Below the pieces are notes generated by a model that worked only from the letters and a program-made list of their open reading frames with translations, was not told the DNA's origin and did not search any database. Below, piece after piece: positions 54,682 through 60,409 of a stretch of 64,000 nt of DNA. The stretch spans positions 248,001-312,000 of the forward strand of contig MSDW01000002.1 of assembly GCA_001914405.1 (NCBI GenBank), read 5' to 3'. The first letter of the stretch is position 1. Each line of letters begins with the position of its first letter. The translations under genes were made by a program, and so were the position numbers. Source of the DNA: Candidatus Methanohalarchaeum thermophilum. Lineage in GTDB: Archaea; Halobacteriota; Methanonatronarchaeia; Methanonatronarchaeales; Methanonatronarchaeaceae.

Positions 54682-55248
54682 GAATGGCTTGATGTTGGTA
54701 GGCCCTGGGACCTATTAGAAGCGAATGAAGCTAAAATGAAGGGATTAGGTAGAGAGATAAGGGGAAAAGTAGAAGATGATGCAAGAGTTAAGGGAGATGT
54801 AGTTGTTGAGGATGGTTCAGTTGTTAAGGATGGTGCCTACACAGAAGGACCAACATATATTGGCAGAGACGCAGTGGTTGGCCCCAATTGTTATTTAAGA
54901 AAAAACACTGTCTTAGAGAAAAACGTTAAAATAGGTAATGCCGTAGAAGTAAAGAACTCCATAGTCTCTGAAAACACAAACATTGGTCATCTTAGCTATG
55001 TTGGTGATAGCGTAATAGGAGAAAACTGTAATTTTGGAGCTGAAACCAAAGTAGCTAACCTAAGACACGACGAAGAAAACATTAAAGTCAATAATAAGGG
55101 AAGGGAAGTGGATACTGGTAGACGTAAACTAGGAACAATCATGGGTGATAACGTAAAGACTGGGATTAATACTTCAATTAATTGTGGAGTTAAAATTGGA
55201 TCTGGTGAAAACACGAGGCCCGGTGAAGAAGTTATGGAGGACAAATAG
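54682..55248 (+). pseudogene. Truncated nucleotidyltransferase/acetyltransferase, C-terminal half
   Basis: From 54682 the frame reads EWLDVGRPWDLLEANEAKMK, the end of a GlmU-like nucleotidyltransferase domain, and continues from ATG 54736 into a left-handed beta-helix (VVEDGSVVKDGAYTEGPTYI, NCYLRKNTVLEKNVKIGNAV type repeats) with NINTS- and GVKIGSG-like turns to 55248. The roughly 220-residue catalytic N-terminus is absent and a TGA precedes the remnant. The beta-helix part (170 residues) could still be translated. Its end is abutted by mobile element E0. Confidence 0.65.
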
Positions 55249-55592: not shown

Positions 55593-56969
55593 GTGAACTA
55601 CCCCTACCTAATCAGGGATTAGGAAGAGGGCTTCCCTGTTCAACCACATGACTTACTGGAATCGAAGTGGTTCCAGCAGAGGTCATTGTGTCTGAGGGGT
55701 TTGACTTCGGACAGTCCCTGCCCTACCAAACCTATAGCCCTATTCACAACATTTATGGCGGCATTCAAATCACGATCAATCTCTAAACCACATACTTTAC
55801 ACTTATGTTCCCTATCTGATAGTTCTTTATCCACCTTATTACTACAACTTGGGTTTGAGCAACTTTTTGTGGTGTTTTTTGCTTCTACCTCTACATACTT
55901 GCTTACCAGCTTGTGAAGCTTTGTAAGCAAGCATAGAGACGAATTCATTCCAAGCATGATTAGCTATATGTCTATTTAGGGCACTACTCTCCCCTTCCGA
56001 TAAGTTCTTACTATCCAAATCCTCTACCGCTATCACATCGTATTTGTCGCTATATGCTCTTGATAGTTTATGTAAGAAATCTCTTCGTGCATCTCTCAGT
56101 TTTTTGTGGGCTTTCGCCAATTTTTTCTTTTGTTTCTTCCAGTTGTTGCTTCCTTTCTCTTTCCTCGATAACTTCTTTTGTTCTTTCTTAACTCTCTTGT
56201 ATTTATTGTATAACAAGTTTTTTAGGTCCTGTATTTCTCTGTCTTCGCTGTCAGTTAAGAAGTTGGATACGTTTAGGTCTATTCCTATTATGTCGCTATC
56301 TTCTGTAATTGGTTTTTTATCAGGCTTTGGGACTTCTATCTCGAGAATAACTTTCCAGTCACCGCAACTGTATTCTTTTATTACTACGCCTTTAACTTCA
56401 GCGTCTTTTGGGATTGGTCTGTGGAAGTTTACGGGTATTTTCCCTATTTTTGATAGATGTATGATTTCTTTTTGTTGGTTTATTTTGTAGCCTGATTGGT
56501 TGATTTTCGATGCTGTTTATTGAATTCTTGTATCTTAGTTTTCCAACTTTTTTTCCTTTCTCTTTTTTTGTGTTTAAGGCTTTGATTGCGTCATATATTC
56601 TTCCAATGGTTTGTTGAGCAGTATTCTTCCAATGGTTTGTTGAGCAGTCTTTGAATACACGTTTTGGAATTCGGGATTTGATGTTTTCTTCCATTTTGGG
56701 AGTTTGTTGTACATCTCGTATATTTGGTATCCATTCACTTGATTCGTTTAATGTTTCTAGTGCTTTATTGTAGATGTCTTTGTGTATTTTGAAGTGCTTT
56801 TTCAACTCTCCTTTGTTTTCTTCTGTAGGATGGGCATCGTATTTGTAAGAAAGTGATTGAGTCATCCCATCACTAATTTATGGTTTTATGGTTTAAGTGG
56901 TTTGAGGTTTTTAGTTGATTCATCCCCTACCAAACCTTTGATTTAGAAGGGTTTTTCTCAACCATCAAG
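55593..56969 (+). mobile_element. IS200/IS605-type element E1 carrying tnpB (no tnpA)
   Basis: The 1377-bp element begins GTGAACTACC with hairpin CCCCTaCCTAATC-AGG-GATTAGGaAG (55601-55628). It ends with a degenerate hairpin near 56924-56952 and TTTCTCAACCATCAAG. tnpB lies on the minus strand, its 3' end at the GT end. The flanks rejoin a MazF/PemK-like gene (HPF-Y-R-I-D). The target read on the minus strand is TTTAT. TnpA is absent, so it depends on a transposase elsewhere. Confidence 0.7.
55640..56865 (-). pseudogene. tnpB: TnpB RNA-guided nuclease, frameshifted
   Basis: TnpB is the RNA-guided RuvC nuclease of IS605-type elements. Joined frames give an N-terminal MTQSLSYKYDAHPTEENKGE, a RuvC-I Asp in IGIDLNVSNF, RuvC-II Glu in VEDLDSKNL, a C4 zinc finger (CSNPSCSNK, HKCKVCG), and RuvC-III Asp in LEIDRDLNAAINV. 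The gene is broken by 4-base insertions near 56500 and 55895, which look like small duplications and not homopolymer errors. There is also an exact 26-bp tandem duplication at 56597-56648 that keeps the frame open. All catalytic residues remain. It is probably dead, though its RNA could still be made. Confidence 0.8.
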
Positions 56970-57461: not shown

Positions 57462-57539
57462 TCAGAAACCGCAAACCTCCTCCAACTAACAGACCCAAAT
57501 CTAATAGAGTACTTAGAAAAAAAACCATATCCTGACGCC
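57462..57539 (+). pseudogene. Nucleotidyltransferase gene fragment cut by a solo hairpin
   Basis: The 26-codon frame SETANLLQLTDPNLIEYLEK-KPYPDA aligns with the segment YNLLKLTDSGLIDYLEK-NLYPDA of the wHTH-nucleotidyltransferase at 60012. It stops at the left end of the 55-bp element. Joining the flanks as for the other elements gives PDA-I-I, close to PDAIV of the homolog, but the sequence past that does not continue the gene. It is a partial duplicate. Confidence 0.45.
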
Positions 57540-57594
57540 GTGAAGTGACCCCTACCTAATCAAAAATTAAGAAGGAGACTTCTCAAACACTAAG
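57540..57594 (+). mobile_element. 55-bp solo-hairpin element
   Basis: It begins GTGAAGTGACCCCTACC like the GT end of E1 and ends GACTTCTCAAACACTAAG like the AAG end of E0 and E1, with one hairpin (CCTAATC-AAA-AATTAAG) between. It appears to be a full element reduced to one shared hairpin, as recombination between its two terminal hairpins would leave. The opposite-strand target is TTAT. Confidence 0.6.
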
Positions 57595-57833
57595 ATAATT
57601 TTTTATTTAGATTTTTTTAGTTCAAAGAAGTTATTTAATAATTTAAAAGGGTTTTTAAGTAAAATTTGTTGGTTTTAGGGATTTCTTTATAGTTATGATA
57701 GGTTCTATTGTTTTTGAGGGATTTTGGTTTGGAAAAAAGAGTTTTTTTGGTGTTGGTTTTTGTTTCCGTCAGTTTTATCTAACAAGTGTTCGATTTATAA
57801 AACAGATGTTTGATAAAAAACAAAATAAAATTA

Positions 57834-57926
57834 ATGCAATACCTATTCAAGAACCCAAGAAAAAACTACCACATCAGAGAACTAGCCCGAAAAACAGATT
57901 ATTCACCCTCAACCGTCTCAAAATCA
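57834..57926 (+). pseudogene. wHTH-nucleotidyltransferase gene, 5' part, cut by E2
   Basis: From ATG 57834 the frame reads MQYLFKNPRKNYHIRELARK, then TDYSPSTVSKS, and meets the IscB element. The segment is a winged helix of the kind found before archaeal minimal nucleotidyltransferase domains. Joined to the sequence at 60012, it continues STVSKS-IKELEKKEFVEV, a consensus recognition helix and wing. The first base of the element is therefore 57927. Confidence 0.65.
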
Positions 57927-57965
57927 GTCAACTACCTCTCCCTAAATCGGAAATTTAGGAAGGGG

Positions 57966-58260
57966 CTTGAAAAAGCTCCGTAGAGGGGTGAGAGATTAGC
58001 CTGAGCGATGTCCCCTCATAGGGTGAGGGCAGATGAGCTACGTTCGGGGCCAAGTGTCTGACAATACACCCTGGGGTGCCTCCCAAGCCACCAGGCTCTA
58101 AAAGTCCAGGCGGACGAAACACTTCGCTAACCCAATGGCATGCAACATCGCCTTGGACCTCTATGCCTGCCCCAACATTGGCGATGGGAACCAACTCACC
58201 CTTGGCAAGGTGAGGCCGAAGACCTCGGCACAAAAAACTGCCAGACTAAAAAACGAAAAC
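57966..58260 (+). ncRNA. Candidate IscB omega-RNA
   Basis: The 295-base stretch between the left-end hairpin and the iscB start has no ORF but is about 60% G+C in places (58021-58080), twice the genome level. It contains complementary runs such as CCCCTCA/TGAGGG near 58012-58027. IscB omega-RNAs are encoded exactly here, 5' of iscB, with the guide taken from sequence before the element's left end. The guide would then be the end of the cut wHTH gene (up to 57926). Structure and expression are predicted, not shown. Confidence 0.55.
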
Positions 58261-58293
58261 AAAACGAAAAAACAAAAACAGAAAGGAGTGAAC

Positions 58294-59944
58294 ATGGGTA
58301 GCCAAAAGGTATTTGTTCAAGACAAAAACGGAGCGCCATTGATGCCCTACAAAACCCGCTAAAGCTAGGCACTTATTAGAGGAGGATGAGGCAGAAGTAG
58401 TGGAGAGAACACCCCTCACTATTCGATTGAACTACAAAATCAAGGGAAAAAAGAACAAGGAAAAAGTTACCCTAGGAATGGACCCTGGATACTCCAAAGT
58501 AGGTTTTTCAGTGGTTGCAGAGAACGAAGAGCTGATAGCTGGTGAACTAGAGCCTAGAAACGATATTTCAAAAAAGCTTGATAAGAGAAGAAAGTACCGG
58601 AGACAAAGGAGGAGCAGAAACACAAGGTACAGAGAACCAAGATTCGATAATAGAGAAAGAGAGAATGGGTGGTTAGCTCCTTCGATTAGGCACAAGAAAA
58701 ACACCCACATCAAGCTAGTTAAGAAACTTAAAGAGGTTTTGCCCATTGACGAGGTAGTGGTGAAAGTAGCTAAATTTGACCAACAAAAAATACAGAACCC
58801 CGAAATATCGGGAGTAGAATACCAGCAAGGAACATTACAAGGCTATAATGTCAGAAACTATTTATTAGAGAAATTCGACCACGAATGTGCTTACTGTGGA
58901 AAAGAAGATGTCCCCCTATAGTTAGAGCACATCATTCCCAAATCCAGAGGTGGAACAGATAGAGCCTCCAACCTAGCCATCAGTTGCCGTCAACTACCCC
59001 TACCAAAATCAAAGATTTTGGAAGGGGCTTGTGTATGATAGGACCAGACCACATGTACAATTTAATTATCGGTTTCCTCGGAGAACTTCCGTTACACACA
59101 GAGAGGTTCTCGCTCATCTAGAACCGATTCCAAGGGCCAGTTGACCGTGACCCATCCACTTCTGGGAACCGAACATGGTCAGTGGTCCCGTCGGCTCTCG
59201 CGAGCACGCTTTTGCCCGAAGCGGAAAAGTTCAGGTTCTCAAGCATGGTAGCGTTCCCCGAAGAAGCGGTTTTCTCTCCTTTAAGAGAGTGCCTTAAACC
59301 GGGAGCCAACCATTCAAACCTATTGACTTTGACCAAAAATATGTGTTCTAGCCATTTAAGCATTACCTCAATTCCTCTCCCACCTAATCAGAGATTAGGA
59401 AGGAGTCTCCTTGAGGTGAAAAGATGAATGTAACCAAGAGAAAGGCAACCAGACGGCAGAGGAATTTGGACACCCAGAAGTTCAAAAGAGAGCAAAAGAA
59501 CCTCTAAAGAAAATGGCTTTCATGAACCAAGTTCGTTGGAAAATAGTCAACGAATTGGGTTGCAACCACACCTTTGGATACATTACCAAGAAAAAGCGGA
59601 TAGAGCTTGGGTTAGAAAAGTCCCACATCAACGATGCCTTCATCATCGCCGGCGGAAAAAACCAGGAAAGAACACAACCATATGTTGTAGAACAGAACCG
59701 CAGAAACAACAGATCAATACAAACAAACAGAAATGGCTATGGTAGAAGCATTAGAAAAGAAAGACATTACTTTCAGCCCAAAGACTTAGTAGAAAAAAAC
59801 CACCTCATCCATAAGGTCAAAGGTGTATTCAACTATGGCAAATGGGTAAGGTTAGTTAATCGATGGGGAGAAAAAGTGAACTCCTCCATCGAAGAAGTTA
59901 ATTTGGTCAAATATGGTGCAGGACTCCAGTTCATACCAACCTAA
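58294..59944 (+). pseudogene. iscB: IscB RNA-guided nuclease, broken
   Basis: IscB is the Cas9-ancestor nuclease. Joined frames give PLMP ([16 protein letters not shown]), [14 protein letters not shown] and TPLTIRL, Ruv[17 protein letters not shown], the Arg-rich bridge helix ([20 protein letters not shown]), RuvC-II region [15 protein letters not shown] (CAYCG, LEHIIPKSRGGTDRASNLAI), and C-terminal RuvC-III SHINDAFIIAGG. Start ATG 58294 has AGGAG upstream. Damage: a one-base shift at a C3 run (~58356), TAG at 58919, insertion of E3 at 58989, and Lys at 58763 where catalytic Glu is expected. It is inactive. Confidence 0.85.
58989..59423 (+). mobile_element. IS200/IS605-type element E3, nested in iscB
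   Basis: A 435-bp element beginning GTCAACTACCCC with a strong hairpin CCAAAATC-AAA-GATTTTGG (59003-59021) inside CCCCT/AGGGG arms. It ends with hairpin CCTAATC-AGA-GATTAGG (59382-59398) and a tail finishing GAAAAG. Excision joins AGTTGCC to ATGAATG, restoring C-H-E-C-N-Q-E-K-G in the HNH zinc site. The core is G+C-rich with no intact ORF; a minus-strand 81-codon frame (59118-59363) may be tnpB tail. It looks like an RNA-carrying non-autonomous relative. The target on the minus strand is TTCAT. Confidence 0.7.
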
Positions 59945-60011
59945 AAAACGTTTTCAATTCATCTTCCACCAAAATCAAAGATTTTGAAAGAGGTCTTCTC
60001 GAAAATTAAAG

Positions 60012-60409
60012 ATAAAAGAATTAGAGAAAAAAGAATTTGTTGAAGTAAAAGAAGGAATTACAAAAAAGTTAAATTAAGCCAAAACAACAAAGCCAAAGAA
60101 TACAAAAGAGCTTATAACCTCCTGAAACTAACAGACTCAGGCCTAATAGATTATTTAGAAAAAAATCTTTATCCTGATGCCATTGTATTATTTGGAAGCT
60201 ATTCAAGAGGAGAAGACGACTCAAACAGCGACATAGACTTAGCAATAATTAACGGAAACAATAAAGGAACACAACTGGATCTAAAGGAGTTTGAGAAAAC
60301 ACTTGAGAGATCCGTGAATCTACAAGAAGTAGAATTAAAGGATGTTGGAGAAAATTTTAAATTAACACTTGCAAATGGAGTTATTTTAAGAGGGTATTTG
60401 GAATTATGA
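60012..60409 (+). pseudogene. wHTH-nucleotidyltransferase gene, 3' part
   Basis: After E2 the frame reads IKELEKKEFVEVKEGITKK (wing), then, following a one-base change in an A6 run (60061-60066), LSQNNKAKEYKRAYNLLKLT and the nucleotidyltransferase core IVLFGSYSRGEDDSNSDIDL with Gly-Ser-x9-Asp-x-Asp. It ends at TGA 60407-60409. Such single proteins with winged helix plus minimal nucleotidyltransferase domain are common in archaea and resemble MntA-type antitoxins. The next small ORF overlaps its stop. Confidence 0.7.

Follow-up and report, generated by a model that had tools for sequence, protein, structure and literature searches.

The nuclease IscB is served by a 5' guide RNA known both as HEARO RNA and as omega-RNA (PMC9755519). 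In the OgeuIscB omega system, IscB is likewise accompanied by a 5' omega-RNA and recognizes the motif NWRRNA (PMC11900391). For the related case of TnpB and ISDra2, a donor-joint model has been put forward in which the element is restored after the empty site has been cut, under RNA guidance, beside the transposase target (PMC8612924). TTTAT has been reported where solo archaeal tnpB elements end (PMC10640517). The locus described here, from Candidatus Methanohalarchaeum thermophilum, is very probably the HEARO/omega-RNA of an IS200/IS605-family element carrying iscB and inserted in a regulatory gene, encoding a wHTH-nucleotidyltransferase, of a halophilic, methanogenic member of the Methanonatronarchaeia; its targeting of the donor site would be an ancestral function, and it is now most likely a relic.

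The window, meaning the whole 64-kb stretch of DNA that was analysed (C2:248001-312000), belongs to a 2.14-Mb, four-contig archaeal assembly (G000) that is 95% complete. The nearest relative compared was archaeon SCG-AAA382B04 (G001), referred to below as the sister genome. The features of the locus, in window positions, are the following.

57806-57926, plus strand: 5' part of the wHTH-nucleotidyltransferase gene, containing the HTH domain (orthologue, L108)
57911-57926, plus strand: presumed guide of about 16 nt, AACCGTCTCAAAATCA, formed by wHTH-gene sequence that abuts the left end of the element
57927-60011, plus strand: whole IscB-type IS200/IS605-family element, 2,085 bp, without target duplication
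57927-58195, plus strand: HEARO/omega-RNA scaffold, with a full-length Rfam match and covariation in 11 sequences
58195-58240, plus strand: 3' extension of the RNA past the Rfam model, with the hairpin CUCACCCUUGGCAAGGUGAG, which is found in several relatives
58294-59944, plus strand: iscB pseudogene, with an RRXRR domain and several lesions
58989-59423, minus strand: nested 435-bp miniature IS605-type element in the HNH domain of iscB
59968-59993, plus strand: right-end hairpin of the outer element (repeat family D4)
60012-60016, plus strand: ATAAA, presumed to be the target-adjacent motif on the 3' side; its complement, TTTAT, is the expected transposase target, and ATAAA also follows other right ends
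60012-60409, plus strand: 3' part of the wHTH-nucleotidyltransferase gene, matching residues 40-171 of the joined protein (nucleotidyltransferase domain in L108)

The outer element begins with GTCAACTACC, which is at the same time the start of the RNA. This sequence occurs 38 times in the genome (versus 4 occurrences of a reversed control), and the copies carrying it have unrelated sequence to the left and common sequence to the right. The right end is marked by the hairpin at 59968-59993 and by CTTCTCGAAAATTAAAG, after which host DNA restarts at 60012 with ATAAAAG, so that the insertion point is exactly ...CTCAAAATCA/ATAAAAG... The sister genome contains an uninterrupted 173-aa wHTH-nucleotidyltransferase gene (L108) in a syntenic neighborhood, where, as in the window, a 170-aa gene and the macro-domain gene flank it on either side. 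L108 aligns across the junction 57926/60012 without a gap, which sets the boundaries of the element exactly at 57927-60011 and shows that no target was duplicated. The sequence-only reading had taken the host DNA next to the RNA to be a broken wHTH-nucleotidyltransferase gene and had predicted an empty allele in which ...TCAAAATCA is joined to ATAAAAG...; the host gene is as described, and the predicted allele is confirmed by the intact orthologue in the sister genome. Subterminal hairpins (repeat families D1, D4, and D5), the lack of a target duplication, and the fixed short target TTTAT place the element in the IS200/IS605 family. No tnpA gene was found inside the outer element (57927-60011), and several Y1 transposase genes are present elsewhere in the genome. 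Just upstream lies a second nucleotidyltransferase fragment (57474-57539, 82% identical to 60116-60181), truncated at 57548 by another IS end. The decayed tnpB of a neighboring IS605 element contains a perfect 26-bp tandem duplication (56596-56647).

The RNA at 57927-58195 belongs to a known class, the IscB omega-RNA (HEARO, RF02033). It matches the Rfam covariance model over its full length (positions 1 to 211) with a score of 42.5 bits, corresponding to E values of 1.3e-6 for 3.5 kb searched and 2.3e-5 for the 64-kb window, and HEARO was the sole Rfam family matched in the whole window. This comparison bears out the identity originally proposed for the leader. As in described HEARO RNAs, the RNA lies 5' of iscB, starts at the left end of the transposon, and has its guide in host DNA; the first position of the match coincides with the left end at 57927 as set by the empty allele, in agreement with the earlier placement of the RNA. 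The window RNA differs from the Rfam family in that its score falls below the gathering score of 83, indicating a divergent member; two HEARO copies of the sister genome score 87 bits, and more closely related copies can be aligned with the window RNA from its first base onward. Further differences are an extra hairpin, inserted in most copies close to the 5' end, and a 3' hairpin past the end of the model that shows covariation (helix 13 of the consensus fold, about 58195-58240), in which three pairs have changed on both sides.

The base pairs of the window RNA are kept through paired changes. In an alignment of eleven copies from two genomes (the window RNA and ten relatives), 93.4% of the cells in the consensus fold are paired, and changes on both sides are seen in 16 pairs and 44 cells, compared with 19.9 such cells in shuffles and no more than 10 when the pairing was slid by 1 to 3 columns. 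The self-complementary runs noted from the letters are present, though the single-sequence folding energy is ordinary for the composition (z = -0.66) and was rejected as proof of an RNA; RNA status is established by the full-length covariance-model match together with the paired changes across relatives. The rise in G+C content that had been reported is real, with values of 0.54 to 0.61 across 57950-58249 versus 0.18 to 0.45 in the surroundings. The sequence-only reading had also described 295 bases before iscB as lacking any open reading frame. Between the left end and iscB no gene-like open reading frame was found, those overlapping the RNA being mechanical only (53 to 92 aa; 57955-58233 on the minus strand, 58135-58362 and 58140-58301 on the plus strand), but the length needs correction, as the distance from the left end to the iscB ATG at 58294 is 367 bases.

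Since the RNA starts at the exact left end of the element, the adjoining host sequence is a usable guide for the empty site. With a guide length of 16 nt, which is assumed from known IscB systems, the guide has a single mismatch-free occurrence in the genome, at the donor itself, and in the empty site it is contiguous with ATAAAAG. ATAAA follows the right end in every copy that could be read there, including the window element, the second iscB copy, the miniature elements of G000 and G001, the intact iscB element of the sister genome (L051), and two elements of G044. Judging from this recurrence, ATAAA is presumed to be the target-adjacent motif of IscB, and the extended form ATAAAA fits the NWRRNA motif of OgeuIscB. 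The system differs from OgeuIscB in its archaeal host and in its smaller IscB (404 aa in the sister genome), and its motif and guide are read from the anatomy of the locus.

A mechanism can be proposed by carrying the donor-joint model of TnpB (PMC8612924) over to IscB. A transcript from the host gene would run into the RNA, and the last ~16 nt of the host gene segment would become the guide. On excision of the element by the transposase, the host gene would be left rejoined; IscB could then be guided to this rejoined gene and would cut beside ATAAA, and repair from the sister chromosome would copy the element back. Unlike the TnpB/ISDra2 case, the nuclease would be IscB rather than TnpB, the guide would stand at the 5' end of the RNA, and the motif would lie 3' of the target.

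The RNA lies directly 5' of a relic of iscB. The window copy has an extra base near 58345 (near codon 17), an in-frame TAG at 58919-58921 (codon 208), a Glu-to-Lys replacement in RuvC-II (GAG in L051, AAA in the window), and an HNH domain that is interrupted by the nested 435-bp element. The RuvC-II Glu is taken here to be a catalytic residue, on the basis of an alignment with IscB and Cas9 and of general knowledge. PLMP, RuvC, and HNH domains are not all intact in this copy, and the gene is dead. The TAG and the Glu-to-Lys replacement are common to two iscB copies, that of the window and L002. All three iscB copies of the genome are broken (the window copy, C2:121767, and C1:95021), and a search of the 95%-complete assembly gave no intact iscB. 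The death of the nuclease gene makes it most likely that the locus is a relic and, together with the lack of an intact iscB in the assembly, makes donor-site targeting a presumed ancestral function. The proposal that the RNA targets the donor site after excision would hold for the ancestral element; as a present activity of the window locus, such targeting is probably not taking place.

Three further copies of the nested element, 98 to 99% identical to it, are present in the genome (C1:450190, C1:1095353, and C2:62334), indicating recent movement. Compared with shuffled sequences, its minus strand is far more stably folded (z = -3.99), and it resembles a TnpB-type guide RNA that has no tnpB. 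The nested element is inserted before ATGAA, a target that differs from that of the outer element.

In the sister genome, the same RNA precedes an intact iscB gene (L051) encoding a protein of 404 aa that has both an RRXRR and an HNH domain and is related in sequence to IscBs of solved structure. The window and L051 proteins are 77% identical over the 173-aa RRXRR part, and the two elements have the same ends and ATAAA; the gene is intact in SCG-AAA382B04 and broken in the window. The intact element (L051:1817-4207) is inserted in the last codons of a PCNA gene, and its joined flanks give ...GAATAA, restoring the stop codon as it stands in the PCNA gene of G000. This element would take its guide from the end of a gene that is presumably essential. 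In its present position, the element lengthens the PCNA protein by five residues. A different flank was seen at L049/L054, where the HEARO element adjoins another IS end (...GGTCTTCTCAACATATAAG/GTCAAC), so that the guide there would come from another transposon.

A DNA search identified eight copies of the RNA in the genome, five of which have no iscB match (C1:289723, C1:464278, C1:491044, C1:745167, and C1:1679543). Three of these were measured at 451, 484, and 495 bp (L003, L090, and L091); they share both ends with the iscB-bearing elements, again with ATAAA beyond the right one, and the right end was also located in the remaining two. The copies without iscB are miniature members of the family, with little content other than the guide RNA. 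Their existence indicates that transposition needs no IscB in cis, as expected where a separate transposase moves the elements. Occurrence without iscB in unrelated contexts had been named in the sequence-only reading as counting against an omega-RNA. This situation was found in part: the five copies do stand apart from iscB, yet they keep the HEARO RNA and the same transposon ends.

TnpB elements also have the GTCAACTACC end, there as the complementary strand of their right end, ...GGTAGTTGAC, as in L004. This element has a 377-aa TnpB whose 3' end faces the shared end, and the HEARO model matches that end alone, weakly, at 19.9 bits. Such likenesses would suit a leader that is only a structured IS605 end, with hairpins for the transposase, or a TnpB-type RNA, and not an IscB guide RNA. 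It is extremely improbable that the window leader is of this kind, as its match extends over all 211 positions of the model and takes in the central segments GCUACGUU and AACAUUGGCG, which were not seen in L004, and it is placed directly 5' of iscB. L004 had been considered as a fourth HEARO and was rejected as a TnpB element with only the end in common. The RNA might, on the other hand, be an IscB guide RNA that is still useful, if an intact IscB encoded in the 5% of the genome missing from the assembly, or gained by transfer, served all eight RNAs in trans. The persistence of eight RNA copies, five of them without iscB, in an assembly that is 95% complete speaks for such a supply, whereas every iscB copy that was found is broken, and the RNA copies could simply be relics; this explanation is unlikely.

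A locus that still works, or did so until recently, would call for the lesions of iscB to be read through. The iscB copies of G000 would then have been functional, recoded by +1 slippage at CCC-U near codon 17 (proposed site, ATGCCCTACAAAACC) and by pyrrolysine at the TAG, and the replacement of the RuvC-II Glu by Lys would have made of IscB a nickase or a protein that only bound its targets. The two iscB copies that have the extra base and the TAG in common differ mostly at third codon positions downstream (39/22/69), and the genome contains two pyrrolysyl-tRNA synthetase genes, both above the family cut-off. Such a gene pair is a trait reported for Candidatus Methanohalarchaeum thermophilum HMET1, class Methanonatronarchaeia (PMC9071458). 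These points are opposed by the HNH domain of the window iscB, which is cut by the nested element, and by the intact sister iscB, which has neither the extra base nor the TAG. The iscB copies are moreover mosaic: in a sliding comparison, L006 and L007 differ by 6.7% in codons 91 to 135 versus about 17 to 24% elsewhere, so that the lesions in common may have spread by conversion and need not date selection. TAG also terminates ordinary genes. Its use as a general sense codon was rejected, as 5 of the 38 long open reading frames of the window end in TAG, one of them being iscB itself, and the TAG-ending frame at 54736-55248 equals its sister orthologue in length. Recoded and recently functional iscB copies are accordingly very unlikely, and the preferred explanation remains an IscB omega-RNA left behind by a nuclease gene that has died.

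The locus is a clean archaeal example of IscB logic, in which the start of the RNA, the end of the transposon, the guide, the empty site, and the motif can all be read from the sequence, and its anatomical predictions can be checked against a relative that lacks the insertion. Decay of the system is likewise visible in the clade, where guide RNAs outnumber nuclease genes and survive as miniature elements. In the sister archaeon, a member of a hypersaline lineage, an intact small IscB and its matching RNA are both present and are directly testable.
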